Assembly: GCA_000310025.1 (NCBI GenBank)
Contig: FN649749.1
Location: 2,665,620-2,714,023, forward strand
Origin: Ectocarpus siliculosus
Lineage: Eukaryota > Sar > Phaeophyceae > Ectocarpales > Ectocarpaceae
DNA length: 48,404 bases
Direction of reading: 5' to 3'
The notes beneath the pieces are model-generated. The model did not search any database, was not told the DNA's origin, and worked only from the letters and a program-made list of their open reading frames with translations. The position numbers were made by a program, and so were the translations under genes. Below, piece by piece: positions 14,917-46,914 of this stretch. Each line of letters starts with the position of its first letter. The first letter of the stretch is position 1.

Positions 14917-15086
14917 GATATCAAGGTGGATTTTGTTCGACTGTTTGAAGAACTCTCTCAAAACCATGGCTAGGCATGCAGGTTTCCCCAGCAAGGCATT
15001 TCGAGTGTTGAAAGATCACTTTCTACCCTTGAGCCAGAGCACTGTCTGGAACCTTGGAGTTGGTGTTTGTGACTGCTGATTTGAGT

Positions 15087-16562
15087 TTCTGTAGAGTTGG
15101 AGCATGTATTGTAATCTCCCAACTTGGGATATCACCTCTTTTCTCCCAGCGCAGATTGGTGGTGAGTCATGGAATTACCTTGCTTGGTGGTCCTGATGGT
15201 GTGATGACTGTTTTCGACGGACATACTATTTTTCAGAGCTTCGATGGCATGCTAATTAAGACTGCGTATCGTCTTGAAGATAAATCTGTTGGTTCGGTGT
15301 TAACTGCCCTCACTCCTTCGAACCCCAAGCATGAATCTAAGATGGATGTGAACGAGTTTCATAACATTTATGCTCATTCGCATGAGGGATTGCTTCGTAC
15401 AACTGCAAAGCGACTAGGTATCGAGTTGACCGGTAAAATGCATGCTTGTACGGGATGTTCGATGTCGAAGGCATTCAAGAAAGGGATTGCTCATGAAACA
15501 AAATGCAGATCAGACAAAAAGTTGGGCAGAGTTTTTGTTGACCTGGGAGGGCGGAAGGACGTTGCGTCCGTAGGGGGTAAACATTACCCCATGATAGTGA
15601 AGGATGATTTCACAAGACGGACATGGATGTATTTCCTGAAAAGTGAATCAGACGCTGCGAGTGCTTTCCGGAGTTTCCTTGCAAGTGTGCGTGCTGATGG
15701 TATCCCATCATTGGTTGAGATTGTTAGATCTGACAATGGGGGGGAGTTTGTCGGAGGAGAATTTGCGTCCGTGTGCAACGAGCTCTTGATTAAGCAAGAG
15801 TTCACCCCGGCTTACAGTCCCCAATACAACGGTGTTGCAGAGCGTGGTTTGGGATTGATTGAGGCGGCGGCAATGGCTGTTCGTAATCAGGCAAAAGTTT
15901 TGTTTGGGCATGTGCAATTACCTAAGACTGATAGACTATGGGCTGAGGCGATGCATTGGGCTTGCGAAGCAATTAACCACACAGCTTGTTCCGCTAATCC
16001 CGACAGTAAGTCACCGTATGAGATGTGGCATGGTGAAGCTAGTCATGCTAGACCGTATCCGTTTTTGAAACCGGCGTACTGTAGGTGGCAGCGTCCGTCT
16101 AAGCTGCTACCGAAGGGTGAGGCTTGCTTTTATGTCGGTCCTTCGAGAGACCACCCGCGTGACTGTCATAGAGTACTTACGAGGGCTGGAACTATTCAGG
16201 AAACGAGGAATGTGACATGGGAAGCGTTGCCGTCACAGCTCCCTCCACCGCAACCGTCTCTCTTGCCGATAGAGGTTGCAGAGCAGGGAGGGGAGGAACG
16301 TGACGACGATATAGAAGCTGAGGTATGGCCGCTTTTAGGGAGAGGAGTTCCCCACATTCTTTTGCGACGTGATATCTCTGGTGGAACAATCGATGAGGTT
16401 GGCAGTGTTGATGCAGGCAGTGTAGGTCAACCCCCCTCTATGCCATCTTCGCCCGCGATTAATTCCCCTAGTAGCGCAGCTCCCCCTGTGTCTTCTCCAG
16501 CAGACGAGTTCTCCGATGAGGGAGGGCAGGGAGGGCCGGAGACAGGGCAGACAGAATCGGCG
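15087..16562 (+). pseudogene. Copia GAG-pre-integrase and integrase core, partial
   Basis: The open frame runs to the N gap. A 'VISQLG' phrase resembles the end of Copia protease regions. The zinc-binding pre-integrase has H-x3-H (HNIYAHSHEGLL) and CTGC. The core has the catalytic triad: D in FVDLGG, D in VRSDNGGEF, and E in GVAERGL, with spacing typical of Copia. A Pro/Ser-rich linker follows. The frame itself is intact, but the neighbouring protease is lost, so the element is a remnant. The nearest ATG (15054) is probably not a real start. Confidence 0.85.
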
Positions 16563-16662
16563 NNNNNNNNNNNNNNNNNNNNNNNNNNNNNNNNNNNNNN
16601 NNNNNNNNNNNNNNNNNNNNNNNNNNNNNNNNNNNNNNNNNNNNNNNNNNNNNNNNNNNNNN
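16563..16662. other. Assembly gap of 100 N
   Basis: Exactly 100 N. The true distance is probably unknown. It cuts the Copia element before its reverse transcriptase; the right flank is simple-sequence DNA, which probably caused the gap. Confidence 0.98.
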
Positions 16663-16890
16663 CCAACCCAATCCAACCCAAAACACAACCCAACGCCAGT
16701 CCGACCGACCGTCCGACCGACGAACCAAACCTACCCTCTACCTCCAACCCACCCAAACCCGTCCCAAAACACACCCCGACCAACCGACCGACCAAACCCA
16801 CCCAACCCAACCCAACGTAACCCAACCCAACCTTGCCCAACCTAATACTCAACCCAACTGGACCGACCGACCGACCGACCGACCGACCGC
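16663..16890 (+). repeat. CCAAC/ACCCAA low-complexity tract and (GACC)7
   Basis: Irregular CCAAC, CCCAA and CCGA words fill 16663-16860, followed by about seven tandem GACC units at 16861-16888. Long reading frames in both directions here are compositional artefacts. Confidence 0.9.
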
Positions 16891-21520: not shown

Positions 21521-21524
21521 TACG
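21521..21524. other. Target-site duplication, left copy (TACG)
   Basis: TACG directly precedes the left LTR and recurs directly after the right LTR at 33706-33709. A 4-base duplication fits Ty3/gypsy integration. Confidence 0.85.
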
Positions 21525-21790
21525 TGTTGTGGGATTTCACGCGTAGCGATCCCTGAAGACCCTGATGAAGACTCACTTGTTTATTAATCTCTTGGAACAG
21601 CAGTGCTTGCTGTTGCTTTGCTCTCAAAGGTAGACTGAGCACAGAGGGGGAGGACATGCTCCCTCTAAAAGGGGTCACAAAGGTCCTGTCCCCTGTTTTA
21701 TCCTTCCATCGGGAGTTATATCTCCCGCACTTTCCTCTGGGAATTACTCCGCAATACCGTTGGCACTGGCTACATTCAAATCCCATAACA
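21525..21790 (-). repeat. 3' LTR of the Gypsy element
   Basis: 266 bases, ends TG...CA, with an AATAAA polyadenylation-type signal on the minus strand (plus 21580-21585). It is identical to 33440-33705 except for one C/T difference. Confidence 0.96.
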
Positions 21791-22645: not shown

Positions 22646-25600
22646 CTAATCGGTGCGTGCCGGATCATTTGGCGGCGAATGCTCCGCCTCCACGTTTCGC
22701 GACATGTCGACATTGCGAAGAAGTCCTTTCATGAGGGCGCTACCGCTGTGGACTTGAAGGCACCACGAACCGCAGACGGCCGATCCGAGGGTAGTGTAAC
22801 GAACAACGGAGAGGGCGATCTTGACCGGTCCGGGGTCGTCGAGGAAGCGTACGATGTAGTGGTCAGCCCGTTCAGTCGGTCCAGAAATCTTGCCCAGCCA
22901 CCAGAGTCCATCTTGAGCCTTGTACCAGAAGAACGCACCCACAGGTAGAGGAGTATCGGCGAAACGACCGTCCCAGGTTGAGCGGGAGACAAAGGAGTAA
23001 CCCGGAGGCAAATATCTCTCGCCCTTAGCACGTGCCAATTCGCGTGCGGCTGCGCCAATACGCATTGCACGGTATCGGCGATTCGTCTGACGGTGTTGAT
23101 CGGGCGTACCCGTCCAATACCGGAGAATCTGCGATCGAGAGTGCTGAAGGTCCATCTCACGCTCCCAAGAAGGGCGGAGAAGACCCTTCCAATGTGTCTG
23201 ATACAGAACTGCGATAACACCACCACGACCGCGAACAGACTGGTGACCAGTAATTTGTTCCACCTCGAGGCGTTCGACCGAAGTCGAGACGTCATTTTCC
23301 GTAACATGATACGGAGGAGATTTGGTCGTATAGTTGTTTAAAACATACTGCGTGAGACCAGTCGGCAGAAACCGTGGCAGGTCCTCAGCGTCACGCGGAT
23401 TAGCGCATGGCTTGCAGCGTGCGACCGAAACACGACGTTTCGAGTCTTTGCCCGGCAGGTCCGACGGAAGATCCAAGTATAACAACTTGGCCGCGAGAGG
23501 ACTGCCATCAGGGGCTTTCGAACAGGGGCCTACAGCCAACACTTTAAACGGACCGGTCCAAAGCAATGATAACTTCGCTTTGAGAACCTTGTCGTTGGTG
23601 CCTGATCGAACACCGGAGCGAATGGTAGATTCGGTATTATAGATCCAAACCCAATCGCCGATGGTGTAAGTCGGAAGCTTGTGCAAAGCATCCGAGAGAG
23701 CGGAATTTCGACGCTCGATCCGAGAAATGGATAACTTGTGCTGCTCGCGTACTAGCTCGTAAGCACGACGTTGGCGATCAGCAGCGAGGTCGCAATATTG
23801 GAGATGGTCGCGATCCAAACTTTGATGACCACGAGCATAAGGATGCTCGATGACAGTCATCGGAAGGCGAGGCAAACGGTTGATATGCACCTCATTAGGT
23901 GCTAAACCGGTGGCCGCGCTAACAGAGTTATTATAGGCAAACTCTACATGAGGGAGATGGACATCCCAATCATCTTGCCGTTCGTTAACGACCATGGCAA
24001 GCATTTGTGCCATAGTATGGTTAACTCGCTCAACACCACCATTTCCATTAGGGTGGTACGAACTGGTGGCCACTTTGCGAACTGCGAGACGTTTGTAAAC
24101 GGCTTGTGACAGTTTCGAGCAAAATTGTGTGCCATTGTCTGATAAAAGACTCAAGGGGCAACCCCACAGAGGGATATACCGATTCACTAAAATATCTGCA
24201 GTACCTTCAGCGGTAAACTCAGCAGCCGTAACGGCGTACATGTCAGCACGCCGACTAAACCGGTCGGTGAAGAGCAGAATGTAAGTGTTACCCCTAGGGG
24301 TAGTCGGCAGCGGGCCGAAATAATCGACACTCACGGACACTCCAGGTCCGGACGGTAGTGGCAAGCTTAAAATGGGCCACCGGGCCGTTTGTCGGGAAGT
24401 TTTACGAGCTTGGCACTTGAGGCAATGGCGAATCCACCATTTGGTACAGACGCTCATGCCTACCCACCAGTAGAAACGCTCTAACATAGACAGCGTACGA
24501 GCTGCACCAAGATGACAAGACGCATTAGCGTGACAGATCTGCATGATCCATGGGCGCATCAACATGGGGACGTAAACTCTAATAGATTCGTCGTTGAGGA
24601 GACGGGCCGCACGCCCGCCATGGCGCGTGGAAGTGGCAGAAGTGGTTGTGGTGGGCTTCTTAACGAGAAGCACTACGTCATCGTCGTCAACGTGCAACCG
24701 GCCTTTATGTGCCAGTTCACGGATGTCCGAAAACGAAGGTCGACGGTGTGACGGAAGGTGGTCGAGAAAACTAGGCGGTAATTCGGGAGGTTGACCTAGA
24801 AGGATGTAGCGTATGGCGGCATCGCACACGGGTTCACCGCGTTGTTCTCGCTCCCAATCAGAATGGGAAAAACGCTCAACCGATTCGCGGAAATCGAGCT
24901 CTACACCCGAAAGCACTGGGGTAACAACAGCCGGCGGAACACGCACCGAACCAAGCAATGGTCCAGACGCGGGCGTCGGCGGTGTCGGGTCTGGGCGAAC
25001 GGCCATCTCCGGAATTGGACTCAGTGGCGCCGAAGCGGCGGAATCCACCGGCTGGGAAGCCGAAGATTGATGAACGCGAGGCGCACGAGCTACAGACTGA
25101 GGAACAGTCGGCTCGAGAAGCGAGTCCTCCGGCTGGGAAAAGCCATAGTCCACCGCCGGGCGCGGAGTACCGGCGGCAGCAGCAGCGCGCCGACGGGTTC
25201 GTGTTGAAATGAGATCGGTAGGATCCAGGGCGCGCCTGGATGAAGCACCAGGGCGTGTAGCGGGCGTTTCTGACGCATCTTGTACGGAAAAAACACCAGC
25301 AGCAGTCGAAACTGCAGAACGACCCGAGGCGACCAAGGGAGGGCGGTTGCGAGCGGTTGTAGAGCCCGAAGCACCGATAACAGTCGGGGTTAAACCTCGA
25401 ACAGACCAAACGCCCGAGGGAACGTCAGAATGAGCGACAGTAGCGCGCGGTCCGTGCTCGCGAAAATCAGCAAAATCAGCTGAAGAAGGCGGTAGCCAAC
25501 CCAAGACTGAACTCGGGGCGGACGGGACGAGCCCACCCAAGCCAACACCGGCTTGATGGCCAGAAGGCACAAACCCACAAGAGCGGATAAAATAAACCGT

Positions 25601-28600
25601 TTCATCTTCAGCCGACGGAGTCAAACGACTGCGGCCAGAACGGTCACGCTCGGTAGCTTCTATCGGTAGTCGAGAAAGGAAGTCAGCATTGCCGTTGGAC
25701 GAACCCTTGCGATACTCGAGAGTGTAGGAGTATGCTGTCAGGAACTCCAACCAACGCTGAACGCGAGCGTTGTTTTCCCCCACCTTTGCAAGGTGTTCAA
25801 GGGACTTGTGATCCGTGAAAATCTTGAAGTGGGTGCCCCATAGGTAACCGCGAAGGCGCTTGATGCACCAAATGATACTGCCAGCTTCAAGATCCAGAGG
25901 AGTCCAATGACGCTCAGATTCCAAAGTAGCTCGGCTAACAAAAACGATAGGCCGAATAGAGCCATCAGGTTGTTCTTGTTCCAAAGTTCCACCAAACCCA
26001 TCTTTACTCGCGTCACAGTAGAGGCGAAAAGGGCGCGAACCGTCGGATACAGCATCCCAATCTGGATACACCAAAACTGGAGGGTTCGCCAGTTCTTCGA
26101 GAAGTTGGCGAACGACGGATTCCATTGAACCCGTGAACTCAAACTTCACATTCTTTTTAAGAAGCGTCGTAAGAGGGCGAATACGCTTAGCCATCTGTGG
26201 AAGAAACTTCCGGTAATAACCCAAACCACCCAGCAAAGCTCGAAGCTGCTTGGTGTCTTTGGGCATCGGCATCTTGGTGAGAGCAACAACTTTTTCACCA
26301 TTGGGCCGAACTCCGTCCGGAGATATAGTGTGCCCAAGAAACTCGGCTTCCGTGGCGCCAATAGTGGCTTTCGGAGGAGTCAGTTTCAAATTGTGCTCGC
26401 GCAATCTTTCGAAAAGAGAGCGAATGGTCGCTACATGAGCGGCCGGGGTCTCATCAAAGACAATGAGGTCGTCCAGATACGACGCAACACCTCGAAGATT
26501 TTTGATGACTTCGTTGACGACCTTACAGAACCATCCGGGAGCAGCGGCACTGCCCTGAGGCATTTTCAACCACTCAAACAGCCCAGAAGACGTAACAAAC
26601 GCCGTGAGGGGGATGGTATCACGATGAACCGTGATCTGATGGAACGAAGATTTCATGTAAAAGAGAGAATAAATCTTCCCCTTAAACAATTTGGCCAGAG
26701 TATCATCCACTCTAGGAATCGGAAGCTGACTAAGAGCACATAGTTTATTCAACTTACGATAGTTTACGGTGATGCGAACACCACCGGATTTCTTGGGTAT
26801 AACAACCAAAGGACTCGAGTACGGTGACGTCGAGTGTTGTATAAGACCCGCAGCAAGATATTGGTCGAGGATAGCGTCCACTTGCTTCGAAACCGGAGGA
26901 CTAACTCGGTACGGACGAGATGTAACGGGCTCACTGCCGGAGGGAACGGTCAACTTGAACGGGAACAATGAACAAGAACCGAAATCCGTAGGCGAACTGG
27001 AAAACACGTCGTGATATTCACATAGCACCTTACCCAATTCGGTAATAACGTCCGGTGTCCAACCAGGACCATGTAAATTAAACGTGATTTCTCGCATGTG
27101 ACGGGGGAGCTTATCCCACACACGAGAGAAACTGGCACGTTGATCTGGTGCTAAACGCGCCAAAAGAGCCGGGGAAGGCGAAAGAGGAGTCGAATCAGAA
27201 GGATTCGAACCAGGCGCCGGATGCGGCGGTTTGGCGGTCCGTTCATGCAGATCATACACAAACGAATGAGCCGTCGGTGACGCTGTCGAACCGGAGCCAT
27301 CGTAGTTAAAAACGGGGCCAGGGTCCGTATGGACAGATTGCGAGGTGTCCGAAACGGGAGTGGGTGAAACGACGGTGGCCGAAAGACCAGCTCCGTCGGT
27401 ATCACACGGAAACGCACCAAGAGGAACCTTGAGAAGGGGCGCTGAAGCAGTACCCAAAACATCACCCGGTTCCAAACTTGAAACTCCCGCTAATGGCGCA
27501 CGCTGGCGGCCATGAGTAACAAAATGTTCTTCTGAAGAAAACATGGACGTTTGAGCAAACATATCTACCAGATAATTGCCTACAAGGGCAGGAGACCCAT
27601 CACTGCGAACTAAATCAACTGGAACCAGTTGGTGTTCAGGCAGTAATTGAATGGGATGTCGGCCAGCATATCTAAGCTGGAAACTACCTTCACGAGCAGT
27701 GACGTCATGCACAAAAGCTTCAGCACCACCGTGCTTATGGTGGGCTAAAGGCAGTTCCCCGAAAACGCGATCATTGGGGCGTCTTGTGGGCAAGGCACGG
27801 TAGGAACGGTCGCTAAAACGCATCCAACTATCCCTGCCGAGCAACACATCATGTTGCATAACACCGTCAGGCACAACATACGCCCAAACGGCGAGAGAAG
27901 CGGTCGGGAATTTTCGCCGAAGAAACTGCACGCTTAAACGGACCATGGTCGACGTTTGAAGGGGGGCGGACTCACCAAACCCTCCCCAACAACGAGGTTG
28001 GGTGCGTGTTTCAAACAACGACGAAGCTGCACCCGCGGCTTTCATGGACTCCCAAGTTCGAGAACTAACGAAAGTCTGGGGTGAACCGGTGTCCAGCAAC
28101 GCCACGCATCCAAATTGCGTAGAAGCCGAGCCACAATGGGTGAGGATTCGTGCAGTGAAAGAGTCATCGTCAACGGTGATTACACCGCCGACTAAACTAG
28201 GACCTTGCTCAGGAAGCAAAGGCGACTGAGGACCAGGATGGTCAGTGTCCCGAGACACAGCCCAAACGCTGTTGTCATGATCGGACGGGACACTAGTGGC
28301 GTATTGCGAAAAGGACGCAAAACGCTCCGAAGACGACGGCACAGGTGCCGTCGACAGCCGTTGATGCGTGGAAGGATTAACTTCGAACACGGTACAACGA
28401 TCTGGGCTGGGCGTTTTACCCAAAGCCGCTAAGCGAGAACTACGTTCTGGCTGTGGGGCGTTGGATCGTAAAAGTTGGCGAACGTTCTGTAAAGCTACAC
28501 CCAACAAATTTAGACCACGCCAACGAGACGGACGACAAGCGTCCGGATGATCTGCACGAAGACCGATTCCCCAAATGCAGTCATAAGGACTGGCTTCTGC

Positions 28601-29977
28601 TAAAAGCTTGTCTCCGGATCCAAGGAGGTGTAGTCTCATCTCTGGATTTTGGGAAAATTTAGCGTAAGAGCCGGTCAGCACGATATTTTCGCGCTCCTTC
28701 TCCCAGAGAGTTTGGTCGAAACCCTGGACCGCACGACCATACTTCTTGTGTAGATCGGGGTCGGAAACTCTCATGATGTTCTGTAGACATTCGCGGTCGC
28801 CAAAAAGGCGAGCTTTCTCTGCAGCAAAAAATTGCTCTGCACACACATACGAAGTACCATCAACGACAAAAGTAGATGGGGTCCATTGACAGAAGGGAGA
28901 AGGGGATTTCCAAAATAGGACCACGTCTGAATTGGAGTACTCCTGAGTAGCATCGAAACCAGCGTCTTTCGAGGACGGGCGATGACGAGAAGTACGAGCA
29001 GGATGTGTGTCAACTGCTAAACGACCTGAAGTGGGAGACGCCTGGGCAGCATTATGGTCAACATCTTCTGCAGATGGGCCGGTGCCAGGTGTACGGGCAA
29101 AGGAATTTACATCCATTGCTAAAATGCCTAAATCAGGGGGTGGGTCCATCGGAGAATTCGAATCCACTGCCGAATTCGCCGAGATAAACGGGGGCGCCAC
29201 GCTTCGTATAGGGCTGTCCGTTTCTAGATCTTCTACCGTACCCGCATCCGATCCGGACCAGGGGGCATATAGATCGCTTTCGCTAGGAGCGGACACCAGT
29301 GCTTTGTCTGTCAATACAACTTTGGACGGTGCAAGGTGCTCCTGGCCGGTCCTCCGTGACAAGGATCGCGAGCATACCGTATTTACGGCGGGCGTCTCTG
29401 AAGCGTCCTCTGGAGACGGTGCTGTCAGCACTCTCAACGTCGATCGCGGGATGTTCCTGGTTTGCACCTCTGCACGATCGTTCTCGTTGGCAATTGGTGG
29501 GGTCTGCTTAGCCCCACCGGGCGAGAATCGTCGGTCGGAACCTGACGAAACCGCTACCGGTGCTGCGGCGGCTGGCGGACCAACGGCGGCAGCGAGCACA
29601 GACGAATCACACGTATCAGAAGACGCATCAGAATTGACCACTTCTGACGAATCCTCCTCAATCATAGAAAGCGCGTTGCTCTTGCCGGTCTTACCTGCAG
29701 ACGCCGGGGGGAGCTGCCGAACTACACTCGGTGGCCCCGCGCGTCTGGTCGCTCTGTTCCCGCACCTCAAGACGGCACTCTCCTCGGGGGAGTCATTTCC
29801 CGAAAAAGTACCCATCAAAAGAGGCGAAGTAGCAGAGGTTGCAAGCGAAATGTCGGAGGGTAAAAGGGGAACGGCATCGTCTTGTGCATTCCCAACCCTC
29901 TTGTCCGAATATGGAGAAGAAACAGCGGGTGCAAGGGCACCAGCGTTTCGCAGGGCAGGAGCACCTCGCTCCACCAT
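22646..29977 (-). CDS. Gypsy Pol polyprotein: NADAR, protease, RT, RNase H, integrase, chromodomain, Tudor-like
   Basis: One uninterrupted frame of 2443 residues from the ATG at 29977; the frame is open back to a TGA at 30071-30073. Domains by residue: Ser/Pro-rich leader 1-350; NADAR about 352-505; aspartic protease with DTG at 629-631 and LLGRD at 712-716; RT about 1015-1215 with YLDD at 1167-1170; RNase H about 1315-1435 (D1322, E1364, D1389); linker 1440-1690; integrase with an H-H-C-C zinc site at 1816-1855 and catalytic D1885, D1947, E1983 (D-x35-E); chromodomain about 2234-2288; Tudor/Agenet-like barrel about 2344-2396. RT motif A, normally LDL or FDM, reads FYM, so the catalytic Asp is Tyr (codon at 26657-26659, TAC). 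That would abolish polymerase activity of this copy. All other catalytic residues that I checked are present. Confidence 0.95.
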   Translation of the reverse strand: MVERGAPALRNAGALAPAVSSPYSDKRVGNAQDDAVPLLPSDISLATSATSPLLMGTFSGNDSPEESAVLRCGNRATRRAGPPSVVRQLPPASAGKTGKSNALSMIEEDSSEVVNSDASSDTCDSSVLAAAVGPPAAAAPVAVSSGSDRRFSPGGAKQTPPIANENDRAEVQTRNIPRSTLRVLTAPSPEDASETPAVNTVCSRSLSRRTGQEHLAPSKVVLTDKALVSAPSESDLYAPWSGSDAGTVEDLETDSPIRSVAPPFISANSAVDSNSPMDPPPDLGILAMDVNSFARTPGTGPSAEDVDHNAAQASPTSGRLAVDTHPARTSRHRPSSKDAGFDATQEYSNSDVVLFWKSPSPFCQWTPSTFVVDGTSYVCAEQFFAAEKARLFGDRECLQNIMRVSDPDLHKKYGRAVQGFDQTLWEKERENIVLTGSYAKFSQNPEMRLHLLGSGDKLLAEASPYDCIWGIGLRADHPDACRPSRWRGLNLLGVALQNVRQLLRSNAPQPERSSRLAALGKTPSPDRCTVFEVNPSTHQRLSTAPVPSSSERFASFSQYATSVPSDHDNSVWAVSRDTDHPGPQSPLLPEQGPSLVGGVITVDDDSFTARILTHCGSASTQFGCVALLDTGSPQTFVSSRTWESMKAAGAASSLFETRTQPRCWGGFGESAPLQTSTMVRLSVQFLRRKFPTASLAVWAYVVPDGVMQHDVLLGRDSWMRFSDRSYRALPTRRPNDRVFGELPLAHHKHGGAEAFVHDVTAREGSFQLRYAGRHPIQLLPEHQLVPVDLVRSDGSPALVGNYLVDMFAQTSMFSSEEHFVTHGRQRAPLAGVSSLEPGDVLGTASAPLLKVPLGAFPCDTDGAGLSATVVSPTPVSDTSQSVHTDPGPVFNYDGSGSTASPTAHSFVYDLHERTAKPPHPAPGSNPSDSTPLSPSPALLARLAPDQRASFSRVWDKLPRHMREITFNLHGPGWTPDVITELGKVLCEYHDVFSSSPTDFGSCSLFPFKLTVPSGSEPVTSRPYRVSPPVSKQVDAILDQYLAAGLIQHSTSPYSSPLVVIPKKSGGVRITVNYRKLNKLCALSQLPIPRVDDTLAKLFKGKIYSLFYMKSSFHQITVHRDTIPLTAFVTSSGLFEWLKMPQGSAAAPGWFCKVVNEVIKNLRGVASYLDDLIVFDETPAAHVATIRSLFERLREHNLKLTPPKATIGATEAEFLGHTISPDGVRPNGEKVVALTKMPMPKDTKQLRALLGGLGYYRKFLPQMAKRIRPLTTLLKKNVKFEFTGSMESVVRQLLEELANPPVLVYPDWDAVSDGSRPFRLYCDASKDGFGGTLEQEQPDGSIRPIVFVSRATLESERHWTPLDLEAGSIIWCIKRLRGYLWGTHFKIFTDHKSLEHLAKVGENNARVQRWLEFLTAYSYTLEYRKGSSNGNADFLSRLPIEATERDRSGRSRLTPSAEDETVYFIRSCGFVPSGHQAGVGLGGLVPSAPSSVLGWLPPSSADFADFREHGPRATVAHSDVPSGVWSVRGLTPTVIGASGSTTARNRPPLVASGRSAVSTAAGVFSVQDASETPATRPGASSRRALDPTDLISTRTRRRAAAAAGTPRPAVDYGFSQPEDSLLEPTVPQSVARAPRVHQSSASQPVDSAASAPLSPIPEMAVRPDPTPPTPASGPLLGSVRVPPAVVTPVLSGVELDFRESVERFSHSDWEREQRGEPVCDAAIRYILLGQPPELPPSFLDHLPSHRRPSFSDIRELAHKGRLHVDDDDVVLLVKKPTTTTSATSTRHGGRAARLLNDESIRVYVPMLMRPWIMQICHANASCHLGAARTLSMLERFYWWVGMSVCTKWWIRHCLKCQARKTSRQTARWPILSLPLPSGPGVSVSVDYFGPLPTTPRGNTYILLFTDRFSRRADMYAVTAAEFTAEGTADILVNRYIPLWGCPLSLLSDNGTQFCSKLSQAVYKRLAVRKVATSSYHPNGNGGVERVNHTMAQMLAMVVNERQDDWDVHLPHVEFAYNNSVSAATGLAPNEVHINRLPRLPMTVIEHPYARGHQSLDRDHLQYCDLAADRQRRAYELVREQHKLSISRIERRNSALSDALHKLPTYTIGDWVWIYNTESTIRSGVRSGTNDKVLKAKLSLLWTGPFKVLAVGPCSKAPDGSPLAAKLLYLDLPSDLPGKDSKRRVSVARCKPCANPRDAEDLPRFLPTGLTQYVLNNYTTKSPPYHVTENDVSTSVERLEVEQITGHQSVRGRGGVIAVLYQTHWKGLLRPSWEREMDLQHSRSQILRYWTGTPDQHRQTNRRYRAMRIGAAARELARAKGERYLPPGYSFVSRSTWDGRFADTPLPVGAFFWYKAQDGLWWLGKISGPTERADHYIVRFLDDPGPVKIALSVVRYTTLGSAVCGSWCLQVHSGSALMKGLLRNVDMSRNVEAEHSPPNDPARTD
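28465..28920 (-). other. NADAR (YbiA-like) domain inside Pol
   Basis: Residues 352-505 of Pol. Visible family hallmarks: FW near the start, PF then VVDGTSYVCAEQFF with the conserved Glu (residue 381), AEKA, KKYGR, W425 and R429, AKFSQNP, LLAEASPYDCIWGIGL and LNLLG followed by VR. NADAR proteins are N-glycosidases: bacterial YbiA cleaves riboflavin-pathway intermediates, and other members remove ADP-ribose from guanine in DNA. It lies upstream of the protease in one frame, so it would be released or carried with Gag-Pol in particles. The role in the element is unknown. Confidence 0.9.
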
Positions 29978-30199
29978 CCCTGATACACGTACATCTTGTG
30001 AAGAACGTGCAATATGTCCCGATGGTGCCGAAGGCGGGTCGGGGGAGGTACACGAACCGCCACCGACGAGTCAGTTGGACCCACGAGCATTGTGGCCATT
30101 CTGACCGCCAGATTGGAAATTTCCCGGCTGTCTAGCATTGTAGTTAGACGAAACAGAAGCACCGGGAGGAGAGCCTGTGTGGACCGATGATTGCGGTCA

Positions 30200-30546
30200 T
30201 TATGTAGACAGAGCACCAGTGTGATGGGTGTTGTCTGTGGACGGCTGTCGCGAGTTATGAGCAAAATTTCCATTATTGCGACCATTATTCTGGGAGTTAC
30301 CGTTGTTATGGTAGTCGCCTGCGTGATTTCTACGCGAAGACGAAGAGTGACGCTTGTTACGCCCGCCACCAGCACCTGAACCGGTGTGTGGCTTGCGACG
30401 GTAAGACCTCATACGGCCTTGCCAACGTCGGAAAGCGTCAGAGTTGTCGTGCAGCTCACCCAGTTCTGGGTTCAACAGACCGCTAGAATTTGTGAAAGGA
30501 GCTGGGCAGTGTTTCATGGAATGGTCATCACCAGAGCGTTCAAACA
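30200..30546 (-). CDS. Gag C-terminal/nucleocapsid segment in the -1 frame
   Basis: In the -1 frame relative to Gag, the sequence continues the zinc knuckle as FERSGDDHSMKHC and then an Arg/Asn/Gly-rich tail (KPHTGSGAGGGRNKRH, NNGNSQNNGRNNG). Joined after the Gag Cys codon (30544-30546) it gives C-x2-R-x4-H-x4-C, so the second Cys is Arg. The frame ends with TAA TGA at 30197-30202, then stays open to a TGA at 30071-30073 and is in the same frame as Pol. Confidence 0.7.
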
Positions 30547-32022
30547 ACGGTTACGGTTCTCTCGAAACGCTTGCGAGCGAGCGTCCTGAGAAAAGAGAGG
30601 AGTCCACAAAAAAGGATCACCGGTGTTACGGAAAGAGGAACTGACTTGGTACACATTCGACCAATCGCCTTGTGTGGCGGGCCATGCACTATAATCACGG
30701 GAAAACGGATTATCACCGCCGCCCTGAGACTGAACTGCCAAAACAACAGGATTTTGTGCAGAACCCTGTGCCCACCGGCCCGAAGGCGCAGGTGCAGGTG
30801 CACGGTTCTGGGAACGCCGGGGCTGCGAAGAACCAGGCGTGGAAGACAAAGAAAAATACTCTGAACCTCCTATAGCGGGGGTTTTGTTGGTGGCCAAAGG
30901 CGAGAACGCCTGCCACATTGCATCAATCGAGTCAAACGGTGTCACGGCCGTAGCCAGATCACCAGGGTACAGCATCGGAGCCAAAGACGGAAACTGTTTA
31001 CTTACAGAATTCCTGACTATCTCAAGCACCATAGACACGCTAAGAGCCAAAACACGCTCAGATCCGGTGACAGAAGAAACCAAAAGGCGGAACGCCCTAA
31101 GGTAATCCGCAAACAAGGTCCCATTCGAAACACCAAATTGCTGAAGTCGCAAAAACGACTCCTGTCGATCTCCGACATCGAATTGCTCCGACAGCAGTCG
31201 CAGAAGGAGCGTGAAGGCCTCTGGACCCGTGGCTCCTTCATCCAGCCTCCGCTTCACTTGCTGAAAATAATCAGAAATGGAGAGGACAAGGTCGGATGTA
31301 GTAGGTTTGTCAGGTGAGATCGCACTCAAAATTCTCTTTTGAAGGGGGCGCTCCCAACCTCGGACAAAATCGGAGTCCATCAAACCGACGCGACGATCAT
31401 CACACAACATCAAAATATCCGTGAGCGCAGATCGAACGGTGCGAATGAGCTGCTGATATGCATCAGCTGGCAGCAAAGACGCAGGGAAAGGCATAGCGGA
31501 TACACGTTCAACTTTTTTGAGGTTGAGGGTGATGTACTCACGTTGGACACGAGCAACATGTGCGGCATCAACTGCCGAAGCAGCAGCAGCAACCGTTGCA
31601 TGGCGAGCGTGAGCAGTGGTGGAAGAAAGCGGCAGAGCACTATCATCGGTGGGCACACTCGCTATGGCAAGAGGCTCTGTTTTTACAGACGGTGGGGCAG
31701 CTTCAACAGCAACCCCACTGGGTTCGGTCTTAATAGACTTTGTGTCTGCAACATCAACACCACGGAAGTCTGTCAACTTGACAGACTTGTCACTACGCAA
31801 CACAGTGTTCGAAAACACAAGATGACCATCACGCAGAAGAGCGTTAAGACGATCATCAGAAGCAACATCCACGAGAGACGGTACTACTTGCCTGGAAGAC
31901 CGGCCCGAAGAAGCCTTCCGAGGAAGACTACGCTCCGAGGCGGAGTCCGAGGATGCTCCTCCAGCGGCGTCCGAAGACGGGCGAGAGGTGCGGCTCTTCT
32001 TCTTGACCACCTTCTTGTCCAC
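30514..32022 (-). CDS. Gypsy Gag, matrix/capsid part
   Basis: A 502-codon frame, open further to a TAG at about 32134, with no ATG before residue 170 or so; GTG at 32022 is only a notional start. The N-terminal third is Ser/Lys-rich with repeated KTEP phrases. The middle (about residues 160-390) is Leu-rich and helical, as capsid domains are (ADAYQQLIRTVRSALTDIL, SISDYFQQVKRRLDEG, FADYLRAFRLLVSSV). A Pro/Gly/Gln-rich region follows, then RENRNRC, the first Cys of a zinc knuckle, where the frame is lost and soon stops. Non-AUG initiation, splicing from ORF0 or decay are all possible. Confidence 0.75.
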   Translation of the reverse strand: MDKKVVKKKSRTSRPSSDAAGGASSDSASERSLPRKASSGRSSRQVVPSLVDVASDDRLNALLRDGHLVFSNTVLRSDKSVKLTDFRGVDVADTKSIKTEPSGVAVEAAPPSVKTEPLAIASVPTDDSALPLSSTTAHARHATVAAAASAVDAAHVARVQREYITLNLKKVERVSAMPFPASLLPADAYQQLIRTVRSALTDILMLCDDRRVGLMDSDFVRGWERPLQKRILSAISPDKPTTSDLVLSISDYFQQVKRRLDEGATGPEAFTLLLRLLSEQFDVGDRQESFLRLQQFGVSNGTLFADYLRAFRLLVSSVTGSERVLALSVSMVLEIVRNSVSKQFPSLAPMLYPGDLATAVTPFDSIDAMWQAFSPLATNKTPAIGGSEYFSLSSTPGSSQPRRSQNRAPAPAPSGRWAQGSAQNPVVLAVQSQGGGDNPFSRDYSAWPATQGDWSNVYQVSSSFRNTGDPFLWTPLFSQDARSQAFRENRNRCLNALVMTIP

Positions 32023-33302: not shown

Positions 33303-33410
33303 ACCAAGAAAGGAAAGCAGGAGCAAGACCGCGCGGTAGAGATGTTTAGCCAGTGGAGCAAAAACGAGCTCTCACGCTAGCAACTGAGAAACCAAAGAGC
33401 CGAGGGAAGG

Positions 33411-33701
33411 CTAAAATCCTTTACTGCAGACACGCCAAATGTTGTGGGATTTCACGCGTAGCGATCCCTGAAGACCCTGATGAAGACTCACTTGTTTATT
33501 AATCTCTTGGAACAGCAGTGCTTGCTGTTGCTTTGCTCTCAAAGGTAGACTGAGCACAGAGGGGGAGGACATGCTCCCTCTAAAAGGGGTCACAAAGGTC
33601 CTGTCCCCTGTTTTATCCTTCCATCGGGAGTTACATCTCCCGCACTTTCCTCTGGGAATTACTCCGCAATACCGTTGGCACTGGCTACATTCAAATCCCA
33701 T
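33411..33701 (-). CDS. Short LTR-borne ORF with CxxC...CxxC
   Basis: The ATG at 33699-33701 lies five bases inside the 5' LTR; the frame crosses the whole LTR and stops 29 bases beyond it. The first residues, MGFECSQCQRYCGVIPRGKC followed by GRCNSRW, carry two CxxC pairs, like a small zinc ribbon. The 3' LTR carries the same frame (from 21786), but its single base difference turns the last Cys into Tyr. It could be chance in a short LTR. Expression is unknown. Confidence 0.35.
   Translation of the reverse strand: MGFECSQCQRYCGVIPRGKCGRCNSRWKDKTGDRTFVTPFRGSMSSPSVLSLPLRAKQQQALLFQEINKQVSLHQGLQGSLRVKSHNIWRVCSKGF
33420..33437 (-). promoter_or_regulatory. Candidate primer-binding site
   Basis: Directly inside the 5' LTR, after two T, the minus strand reads TGGCGTGTCTGCAG. 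A tRNA primer site should start with TGG, complementary to a tRNA CCA end. I cannot assign the tRNA. Confidence 0.4.
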
Positions 33702-33705
33702 AACA
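33440..33705 (-). repeat. 5' LTR of the Gypsy element
   Basis: 266 bases, TG...CA ends, AATAAA signal on the minus strand (plus 33495-33500). GGATAAAACAGG upstream of it is a possible TATA-like element. It matches 21525-21790 at 265 of 266 positions. Confidence 0.96.
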
Positions 33706-33709
33706 TACG
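33706..33709. other. Target-site duplication, right copy (TACG)
   Basis: It repeats the four bases at 21521-21524. Removing the element and one copy restores a continuous empty site. Confidence 0.85.
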
Positions 33710-44642: not shown

Positions 44643-45655
44643 ATGAGACTGGATCCTAACGCCCCGGCTTGGACACCGGGGCTATGCAGCAGCAGAGAGC
44701 ACGGTGAGGGTGGCGGAGTGACCGCACGCCGTGGGGGTATGCCCCAGAGAGAGGAAAGGAGAGAGTCCAGAGATGGAGGACCACACCGCTCCGGGACAAG
44801 AAGACAACTCTATGGGAAACAAGGCAAGGACCGGGGTAACTATCACCTTAGCCCGAGAGTTCGCAAGAAAAAAGAAAAAAAAGAAAAAAAGAGGGGGAGA
44901 TGGAGGAAAAGGAGGGGTCGGGCGGCGCGTAGGCTAGCTAAGAGATTTTCGCGCGCCGCGAGAAAGAGACAGCAGGGTCAACTTCTTAGGGTAGCAACCT
45001 GGAATGTGCGGACTTTGGCTTTAAACGGGGCCAATGGATACGGGCGAGCCTACAGCATTCTACACGAGGCAGCGAGACAAGACGTATCGGTGGTAGGAAT
45101 GCAGGAGACACGGAGGGCAGGTCGAACGGAATTTGCAGCAGCGGGTTTCCGGGTGTTCTGCTGTGGCACGGAGACTGGTGGAGTCCATGGTGTGGGGATA
45201 GCCGTCAAAGAGTCACTGTGCAAGACATCCACGTTCACTACCGAGTTTATCGACGAACGCCTTATTGCCATGAGGTTTCTGTTGGCAGGCCACCGTGGAG
45301 CGGTCAACTTCGTAGCCGCGTATGCTCCAACCGAACCTTCAACCGCCGATAGCAAGCGCGTGTTCTGGGGAAAACTTGACAGTCTCGCGCGGAGGATCCC
45401 TTCCAAAGAATATGTGTATGTCTTATTGGACGCCAACGCGCGGACGGGAGATAGGTTGGACGGAGGGGACGGAAGGGTATTAGGAATGTACGGGCGTGAT
45501 GAGCTCAATGACAATGGCATGCTACTGTTGAATTTCGCAACGGAAAACAGGCTAGCTCTCACGAACACGTTCTTCGAGACGCGCAAGGGCGGAATATGGC
45601 ACACATACAACGGTGTGTCGGGAAACGATTGCAAGCGCCTTGACTACATTTCAAG
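44643..45655 (+). pseudogene. LINE AP-endonuclease, truncated
   Basis: A basic Lys/Arg-rich N terminus of about 110 residues is followed by the exonuclease III-like endonuclease: VATWNVRTL (Asn), GMQETRR (catalytic Glu), VAAYAPTEPS, VLLDANARTG (Asp, Asn) and TYNGVSGNDCKRLDYI. The last motif with the catalytic His is missing because of the deletion. After 45655 the frame runs on to 45806 over RT sequence in the wrong frame. Confidence 0.88.
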
Positions 45656-46914
45656 CCAACAACATCCTCCCGGAGGAACAGTGCGGATTTCGACCCGGGC
45701 GATCCACCGTCGACATGCTGTTCGTCGTGCGCCGCCTCCAGGAGCTGGGGCGGAGAAAGAAAATACCGCTCTACATGTGCTTCGTCGACTTGAAGAAGGC
45801 GTATGATTCGGTGGACCGAGAGATGCTATGGAAGGTGCTGGCCAGGGCCGGGATTCCCGCGAAGCTAATCAAAGCCATCCGCCAATTCCACGATGGAATG
45901 CGGGCCCGGGTGCGCATGGACGACGGAGAACTATCGGACTGGTTCTTCGTCAAACAGGGTGTGCGACAAGGATGTGTGCTATCCCCACTGCTGTTCAACA
46001 TCTTCTTCGCCGAGGTCCTCGAGGTCGTCGTTATCCGATTCAGCGAGGATGATGTTGTTCTGCAGAACCTGGTGTGCTTGGAGGAGGGGAAGACGGAAGC
46101 GGGGGGGGGGGGGGACACACCCCTTGACCGAGTACGGAGGGCAGTATGGGGGATGCTGTATGCCGATGATGCCGGCGTCGTATCGAGGTCTGCAGAAGGA
46201 CTGGCGAGAATGATGACCATCATCGTTGAGGTGTTCGGAGAGTTCGGGCTAACGGTGTCGGAGAAGAAGACGGAGACGCTCCTGATGCGCGCGAAGGACA
46301 AGTCGACTACAACATCACAGCCCCCCCCGCCTCCACCGCTCACCATCGAAGCCGCGGGACAGAAATACGCCCAGACGACCGAGTTCCGGTACCTCGGTGG
46401 CCTCGTCAACGAACATGGCGACCTCACCCGGGAGATCAGCTACAGGAGCATAGGAGCGTGGGCGTGCCTCAGGCGATATGGCCAGGAGCTCTTCGACAGA
46501 CCGAAAGAGCTATTCCGACTCAAGATCCGCCTCCTCCAGGCGGAGGCGATGGAGGCACTGCTGTACGGCTGCATGACATGGTCACCACTCAGCGGCCACT
46601 ATCAGACGCTGCGGTCGACACACCACCGACTGCTCCTTCGAGTTATCGGGTACAAGCGCAAGAAAGACACCTACCGGCAGCTCTCTTACGCCCAGACGCT
46701 GAAGACGGTCGAATGCCAGAGCGTTGAAGCCACGATCCGACAACGACGCCTACTGTTCGCGGGAGCACTGGCAAGGCAGCCGGACGGGCGACTCCCGAAA
46801 CGACTGATGCTCGGCGAGCTGGCGGGGGGGGAGAAGCTGATCGATAATTCGGGTGGCTCAGTTGTGTGTGATGGGAGCGTAGAGCAGCTCGGCCATGACG
46901 GGCCGCACGGGTAG
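45656..46914 (+). pseudogene. LINE reverse transcriptase palm and thumb, 5' truncated
   Basis: RT motifs present: EEQCGFRPGRSTVDML (motif 2), FVDLKKAYDSVDR (A, catalytic Asp), GVRQGCVLSPLLFNIFF (B) and YADDAGVV (C, catalytic Asp pair). A long C-terminal region (YLGGLV, then a tail rich in Arg and Leu) follows to a TAG. A G12 run at 46101-46112 sits inside the frame. Motifs 0 and 1 are missing, and there is no start of its own. Confidence 0.88.

Follow-up and report, generated by a model that had tools for sequence, protein, structure and literature searches.

A NADAR domain conserved in the Pol protein of a Ty3/Gypsy retrotransposon lineage of the brown alga Ectocarpus siliculosus

NADAR domains represent a kind of enzyme known to remove ADP-ribose from both DNA and RNA. 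This report concerns a NADAR domain in the Pol protein of a Ty3/Gypsy retrotransposon, which lies in a stretch of 48,404 nucleotides of Ectocarpus siliculosus (contig FN649749.1, positions 2,665,620 to 2,714,023, assembly GCA_000310025.1), hereafter called the window. A fusion of NADAR with Gypsy elements was described for Ectocarpus by Dinatale et al. (Genome Biol 2025; PMC12477816), who state that all families of the lineage carry the domain. Their lineage, with Gypsy-12_Ec32 as an example, likewise has a YbiA-family NADAR in the N-terminal region of Gypsy Pol, and Gypsy-12_Ec32 is also a published example of a C-terminal chromodomain; no difference from the window element was found, the two being compared by description rather than by consensus sequence. 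An initial annotation of the window had known of no described case, which this publication overtakes. The same article also reports NADAR in a retrotransposon protein of the oyster Crassostrea gigas; this is ORF1 and not Pol of the non-long terminal repeat (non-LTR) element Tx1, and it is reported as divergent matches. As described in PMC9503650, NADAR occurs together with a polymerase in polyproteins of RNA viruses, as it does in the element Pol; these are positive-strand viruses of animals and, unlike the element, do not reverse transcribe.

Our literature search, with most subscription papers outside its coverage, found no further report of NADAR in a retrotransposon and none of a NADAR-integrase fusion. 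In the portions of PMC12477816 consulted, no mention was found of the brown-algal zinc-finger (ZnF)-NADAR genes or of a fusion of the P0326 type, both treated below. The fusion architecture is already known, while no paper found in this search demonstrates its function for the element. New here are the evidence on selection and on the active site, a tree that favours kinship with a host gene, and a separate NADAR-integrase fusion.

The initial annotation had placed a complete NADAR-type sequence at 28465..28920 without giving a strand. The profile search that it proposed gave a significant match: PF08719 (NADAR) covered Pol residues 355-504, at window 28466..28915 on the minus strand, with 154.4 bits (E 4e-45, cut-off 35.1; profile positions 2-163 of 163), and a whole-genome scan with the same profile returned the same place. 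The motifs that it quoted are all found in the Pol translation. Stops are present in 28465..28920 if it is read in frame 1 of either strand, the correct frame being that of the minus-strand Pol open reading frame (ORF; 22646..29977), which runs for 2443 aa with no interruption. NCBIfam TIGR02464 matched the domain with 137.8 bits (cut-off 73.7), the PDB entries 8bau and 2b3w matched it in sequence, and the fold predicted for it is YbiA-like. The 154-bit match and the conserved families rule out a chance or frame artefact, and the NADAR domain in this Gypsy Pol is real and conserved.

At least 150 places in the 189 Mb genome match PF08719 over the cut-off (best 150 of 230 candidates scored), and the counts from the genome lists are lower bounds, the best 150 or 136 candidates having been scored. 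Besides the window, 60 loci were read, 40 of them with surrounding sequence of up to 4.6 kb and 20 as the domain only. They were chosen from the 149 other NADAR places by taking the 40 top scorers and 20 weaker ones, and are a non-random sample. When the window Pol was compared with the 40 long loci, NADAR and the protease region (Pol 600-760) were found in all 40, and RT (reverse transcriptase) and RNase H in 38, while Pol residues 515-600 were found in 17 and residues 1-330 in 6. Sister elements thus carry the same insertion, and it is not confined to the window copy. RT of the same lineage was present in 39 of the 40 long loci. In the genome lists, 119 of 136 RT matches are preceded by NADAR on their own strand, with 614-2643 bp between the two (median 1570 bp). 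Conversely, a listed RT accompanies 119 of 158 NADAR places. The RT list uses 136 of 137 rows, the second piece of one copy being dropped, and the NADAR list adds 8 places from a second query to the 150.

Conservation and selection were studied in 60 of 61 domains (the window and the 60 loci, L052 being dropped for length). At 85% nucleotide identity with single linkage these formed six families and two broken singletons, and a stop lies within the domain in 5 of the 60 copies. In the singletons, L049 and L050, the reading frame is shifted in the central part of NADAR and yet stays open (2346 and 1055 aa).

The catalytic Glu and Lys (E43 and K50, as numbered in the Phytophthora NADAR) are both present in the window domain. 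The domain also has Glu at the E125 position, which places it in the YbiA subfamily, where this residue is Glu and not Asp or His (PMC11543638). Among the 60 domains, E43 is retained in 59, K50 in 54, E125 in 59 and W133 in all 60; the active-site Glu and Trp about which the initial annotation had asked are in place (E43, E125 and W133). When representatives of the six families were aligned, 12 of 13 mapped positions were invariant, compared with 66 of 171 columns (hypergeometric 5e-5; 9e-5 on the 152-column core). A wider set of 101 database NADARs had Lys at K50 in 94, Glu at E125 in 94 and Trp at W133 in 97; Glu stood at E43 in 79, and 18 were not aligned at that position. It was documented that the equivalents of E43 and E125 matter for hydrolysis, and that E88A by itself changed little in vitro (PMC11543638). 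The domain is probably enzymatic.

For the ratio of nonsynonymous to synonymous rates (dN/dS), which the initial annotation had suggested as a check, 55 domains were used, the five rows with stops being excluded, and within-family pairs were counted only if dS was above 0.01. The summed within-family dN/dS was 0.236 for NADAR (213 pairs) and 0.216 for RT (41 pairs). Between families, the proportion of synonymous differences (pS) was 0.72-0.88, and nonsynonymous differences were 0.17-0.37 in NADAR and 0.08-0.29 in RT. Only the synonymous differences approach saturation, so that NADAR is constrained, though to a somewhat lesser degree than RT. Our results therefore indicate purifying selection on the domain both within and between families. 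The broken singletons L049 and L050 showed high ratios against their nearest families (0.56 and 0.99). The ratio of nonsynonymous to synonymous proportions (pN/pS) in the Pol stretch before NADAR was 0.88, 1.16 and 0.92 in families 0, 1 and 2; in NADAR it was 0.57, 0.07, 0.25 and 0.11 in families 0 to 3, and in the 90 residues after NADAR 0.75, 0.32, 0.37 and 0.60. These values rest on few differences, the N-terminal stretches being 87, 274 and 219 aa long with 12 of 12, 5 of 6 and 8 of 10 copies, and family 3 has no value for this stretch. The downstream flank is partly constrained too, so that a low pN/pS is not unique to NADAR.

A protein search used Pol residues 345-1240 as the query, scored 8000 candidates on its first 420 residues and returned 104 proteins, many of them on ENA contigs of up to 2.5 Mb. 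By local BLAST, 79 of these combine NADAR with the protease of the lineage and 27 combine it with RT. The NADAR + RT proteins of Ectocarpus sp. CCAP 1310/34 (P0248, P0301 and P0305) fall within the element families of the present genome. When trees of NADAR and of RT-RNase H were built with 23 rows each, the same family groups were recovered, including the group of P0236, which indicates that the domain has broadly descended together with RT. The simplest reading of these trees would be that the domain entered once, early on, and was then inherited with the element; domain swaps between families are possible.

P0326 (738 aa, on a metagenome contig of 3540 bases) has NADAR directly before an integrase with H2C2, rve and a p58 C-terminal domain. 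It is a separate NADAR fusion, in a different element of Gypsy type; the branch of its NADAR is long, and no starred group unites it with the algal elements.

The initial annotation had seen NADAR in one frame with protease, RT, RNase H and integrase. The profile scan upheld this over the cut-off for RT (RVT_1, 88.2 bits; Pol 1060-1218, 26324..26800), RNase H (PF17917, 111.2 bits; Pol 1314-1416, 25730..26038) and the integrase, with its H2C2 zinc-binding domain (PF17921, 46.5 bits; Pol 1803-1860, 24398..24571) and rve core (PF00665, 35.0 bits; Pol 1878-1976, 24050..24346), all on the minus strand. The aspartic protease-like stretch (Pol 625-716, 27830..28105, minus strand) matched PF13650 below the cut-off only (14.3 bits against 24.3); it lies in the expected place, and the order protease-RT-RNase H-integrase is that of Gypsy elements. 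Toward the C-terminus there is a chromodomain-like stretch (Pol 2238-2288, 23114..23266, minus strand; 13.5-16.5 bits, cut-off 25.1), which matched the MPP8 chromodomain profile weakly (E 0.25). It is followed by a second block (about 22700-23010, minus strand), in which VGA.FWYKA.DGLWWLGKI...YIVRFLDDPGP is strongly conserved in one copy from each of the six families; it received no Pfam name, and our impression is that it is Tudor-like.

The element is bounded by LTRs of 266 bp that begin and end with TGTT...AACA, the 5' LTR at 33440..33705 and the 3' LTR at 21525..21790 (minus strand). Since the two LTRs have 1 difference and TACG is duplicated at both flanks (21521..21524 and 33706..33709), the insertion is recent. 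A presumed primer-binding region, assigned by position, adjoins the 5' LTR (33401..33439, minus strand), and no tRNA was matched to it. An ORF of 502 aa occupies the gag position (30517..32022, minus strand), and the profile scan gave no Pfam match for it. The Pol frame is open from 30550 to 30203 across the end of this ORF, has at least one stop between 30203 and 30070, and reopens at 30070 into Pol. Elsewhere in the window, on the plus strand, there is a fragment with an integrase core at 15054-16817, Copia-like by impression, which contains a run of N near 16.6 kb. A pair resembling a long interspersed nuclear element, with a PF03372 endonuclease-type domain and RVT_1 (105.7 bits) in neighbouring ORFs, lies at 44643-46914 on the same strand.

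As regards the origin of the domain, Dinatale et al. suggest that it was acquired straight from bacteria by horizontal transfer (PMC12477816). The named non-algal matches of the domain are indeed mostly bacterial, with 52-56% identity (best 120 of 690), and in family 2 a bacterial protein scored slightly above the host protein (184 vs 181 bits). On the other hand, the six family representatives have 51.5-59.4% identity to the best host protein. In five of the six families it scored above the top one among 12 named bacterial proteins. The host proteins meant here carry an N-terminal Cys/His motif and then NADAR (P0124, P0125 and P0006); the full motif is missing from the P0126 and P0127 models, and all five fall into one group. 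In a tree of 76 rows, five brown-algal host proteins and 38 element rows formed one clade (99/92) apart from bacteria, and the element rows alone had 66/73. These 38 rows were 12 genome copies, 7 database proteins with protease or RT, and 19 placed by tree position, and four long-branch rows (P0163, P0326, P0180 and P0191) were left out. An earlier tree of 72 rows had an unresolved backbone and did not reject a clade of 21 element rows alone in the approximately unbiased (AU) test (p 0.219). Forcing the elements together with a mostly bacterial group of 15 rows, host genes outside, was likewise not rejected (AU p 0.084). Because the AU tests did not reject these alternatives, kinship with the brown-algal host gene is favoured on the phylogeny and not proven. 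We regard the bacterial route as rather unlikely.

The host ZnF-NADAR gene of this genome (L082; G000 C24:2125000-2127200) shares the contig of the window, at a distance of about 0.54 Mb, and its NADAR domain is spread over at least four coding blocks. A first query had missed it, probably owing to the scoring of the best 150 of 265 candidates; a second query found its exons, so that its supposed absence was dismissed. Its relatives occur in Ectocarpus, Scytosiphon and Pylaiella, and three of its four coding blocks have 84-95% identity to Ectocarpus sp. 13 AM-2016. The gene lies outside the elements, and its domain is split by introns while the element NADAR is in a single frame. The N-terminal Cys/His motif was found in none of the 40 element loci, and a shared zinc finger as a trace of capture was therefore rejected. 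A tblastn search with the zinc-finger part matched L016 (E 0.002, no cysteine pattern) with composition correction off, and gave nothing under E 0.16 with it on. P0128, a similar Cys/His-NADAR protein, stands outside the clade of elements and hosts; this speaks for the host gene having come first, and the reverse direction, a host gene derived from the element, is possible. A phage origin was rejected, as the 689 matching phage records were all below 60% identity.

For the function we tentatively put forward, at somewhat less than even confidence, that the domain is an enzyme module of this Ty3/Gypsy lineage, most likely captured from a brown-algal ZnF-NADAR gene, and would act as an N-glycosidase that clears ADP-ribose from guanine in the RNA and cDNA of the element. 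It is a YbiA-subfamily NADAR fixed between the Pol N-terminus and the protease, and its uptake, most likely from that gene or one closely akin to it, would have preceded the split of the element families. Freed by the element protease, or left tethered in Pol, it may reside in the particle and remove ADP-ribose from guanine bases of the template RNA, the cDNA or the insertion site. It would thus be a repair or counter-marking module, and clearing such adducts would be useful, since they would otherwise stop reverse transcription or tag the element for silencing. A conserved catalytic NADAR within the polyprotein that copies RNA into cDNA would most simply serve to clear adducts from the nucleic acid of the element. 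We infer in steps that the domain is likely active, that it would act on element RNA or cDNA, and that it may counter a defence. On the host side, a search of the genome found four PARP matches at exon level and one Macro exon.

Several observations weigh against this proposal, in addition to the long-branch rows excluded from the origin tree and the unrejected grouping with bacteria. Cys stands in place of the pyrophosphate contact R93 in 61 of the 101 database NADARs, and D86, which contacts the adenine-side ribose in the stand-alone Phytophthora nicotianae protein 8bau (PMC11543638; 32% identity), is not kept in the elements. TIGR02464 is named for a riboflavin-intermediate N-glycosidase, so that the family does not fix the substrate. 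Within family 0 the constraint on NADAR is weak, and in families 1 and 2 the 90 residues behind the domain are constrained as well. In their deeper branching the two trees differ: the RT tree joins families 0 and 5 (100/99) and the NADAR tree does not, placing family 0 nearer families 1 and 4 (80/88); P0290 and P0299 also shift between the trees. Among the 136 RT copies, 17 have no listed NADAR. Two of these were inspected: L073 has a NADAR remnant upstream of RT, and L072 (G000 C26:254651-258000) has the protease and RT of the lineage and no NADAR in the 3.35 kb upstream of RT, by deletion, truncation or membership of a NADAR-free subfamily. Moreover, the genome scan gave no match for DarT. 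The DarT1-associated NADAR antitoxins belong to the same superfamily and share the catalytic Glu and Lys, but the DarT1-linked BC4488 subfamily has Asp at the E125 position (PMC11543638), where the element has Glu; with no DarT match in the genome, an antitoxin of the DarT1 type was rejected.

The conserved ADP-ribose pocket would also suit an enzyme that destroys small NAD or ADP-ribose derivatives (cyclic ADP-ribose, ADP-ribose phosphates or other signals) rather than adducts on nucleic acid, and so weakens a diffusible signal of the host or removes RNA-processing by-products. PMC9503650 proposes such a role for phage NADARs and notes the embedding of NADAR with polymerase in RNA-virus polyproteins; for eukaryotic RNA viruses it prefers macromolecular targets, and a particle-bound Pol domain would be a poor scavenger of diffusible signals. 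We consider this role unlikely. It is less likely still that NADAR acts as a reader, binding ADP-ribosylated chromatin or DNA breaks and steering integration together with the C-terminal chromodomain-like block. The binding residues are conserved, and the chromodomain-like stretch is found, below the cut-off, in five of six copies; however, E43 and E125 are kept, whose equivalents matter for hydrolysis (PMC11543638) and which a pure reader need not keep, and NADAR adjoins the protease, far from the integrase.

A retained YbiA housekeeping activity on riboflavin-pathway intermediates, to the benefit of the host and not of the element, appears very improbable: the TIGR02464 match speaks for it through the family name only, while the multi-copy context and the co-descent with RT point to use by the element, and a separate ZnF-NADAR gene is already in the genome. 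That the captured domain is a passenger of no use to the element fits the broken or changed copies (L049, L050 and the five of 60 with a stop) and the RT copy L072, but is disfavoured to the point of being scarcely credible by the purifying selection within and between families, next to a nearly neutral preceding Pol stretch, and by the over-conserved active site.

Our proposal of a guanine-directed enzyme may be carried further. Retroelements could have made a weapon of NADAR repeatedly, through three captures or more (in brown-algal Gypsy Pol, there from a host ZnF-NADAR gene; in the Gypsy-type NADAR-integrase protein P0326; and in oyster Tx1 ORF1), and selection could have kept it for erasing guanine ADP-ribose set by the host on their nucleic acid. 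We hold this wider view to be doubtful; if it is true, it would mean an arms race over ADP-ribosylation between a genome and its retrotransposons.

Taken together, the element offers a clean and testable case: it is multicopy, seems to have been active recently, and carries an enzyme whose fold is known and in which selection acts on the catalytic residues. The host ZnF-NADAR gene of the same genome is a ready comparison. If ADP-ribosylation of nucleic acids restricts retrotransposons in stramenopiles, these elements would be the place to see it.
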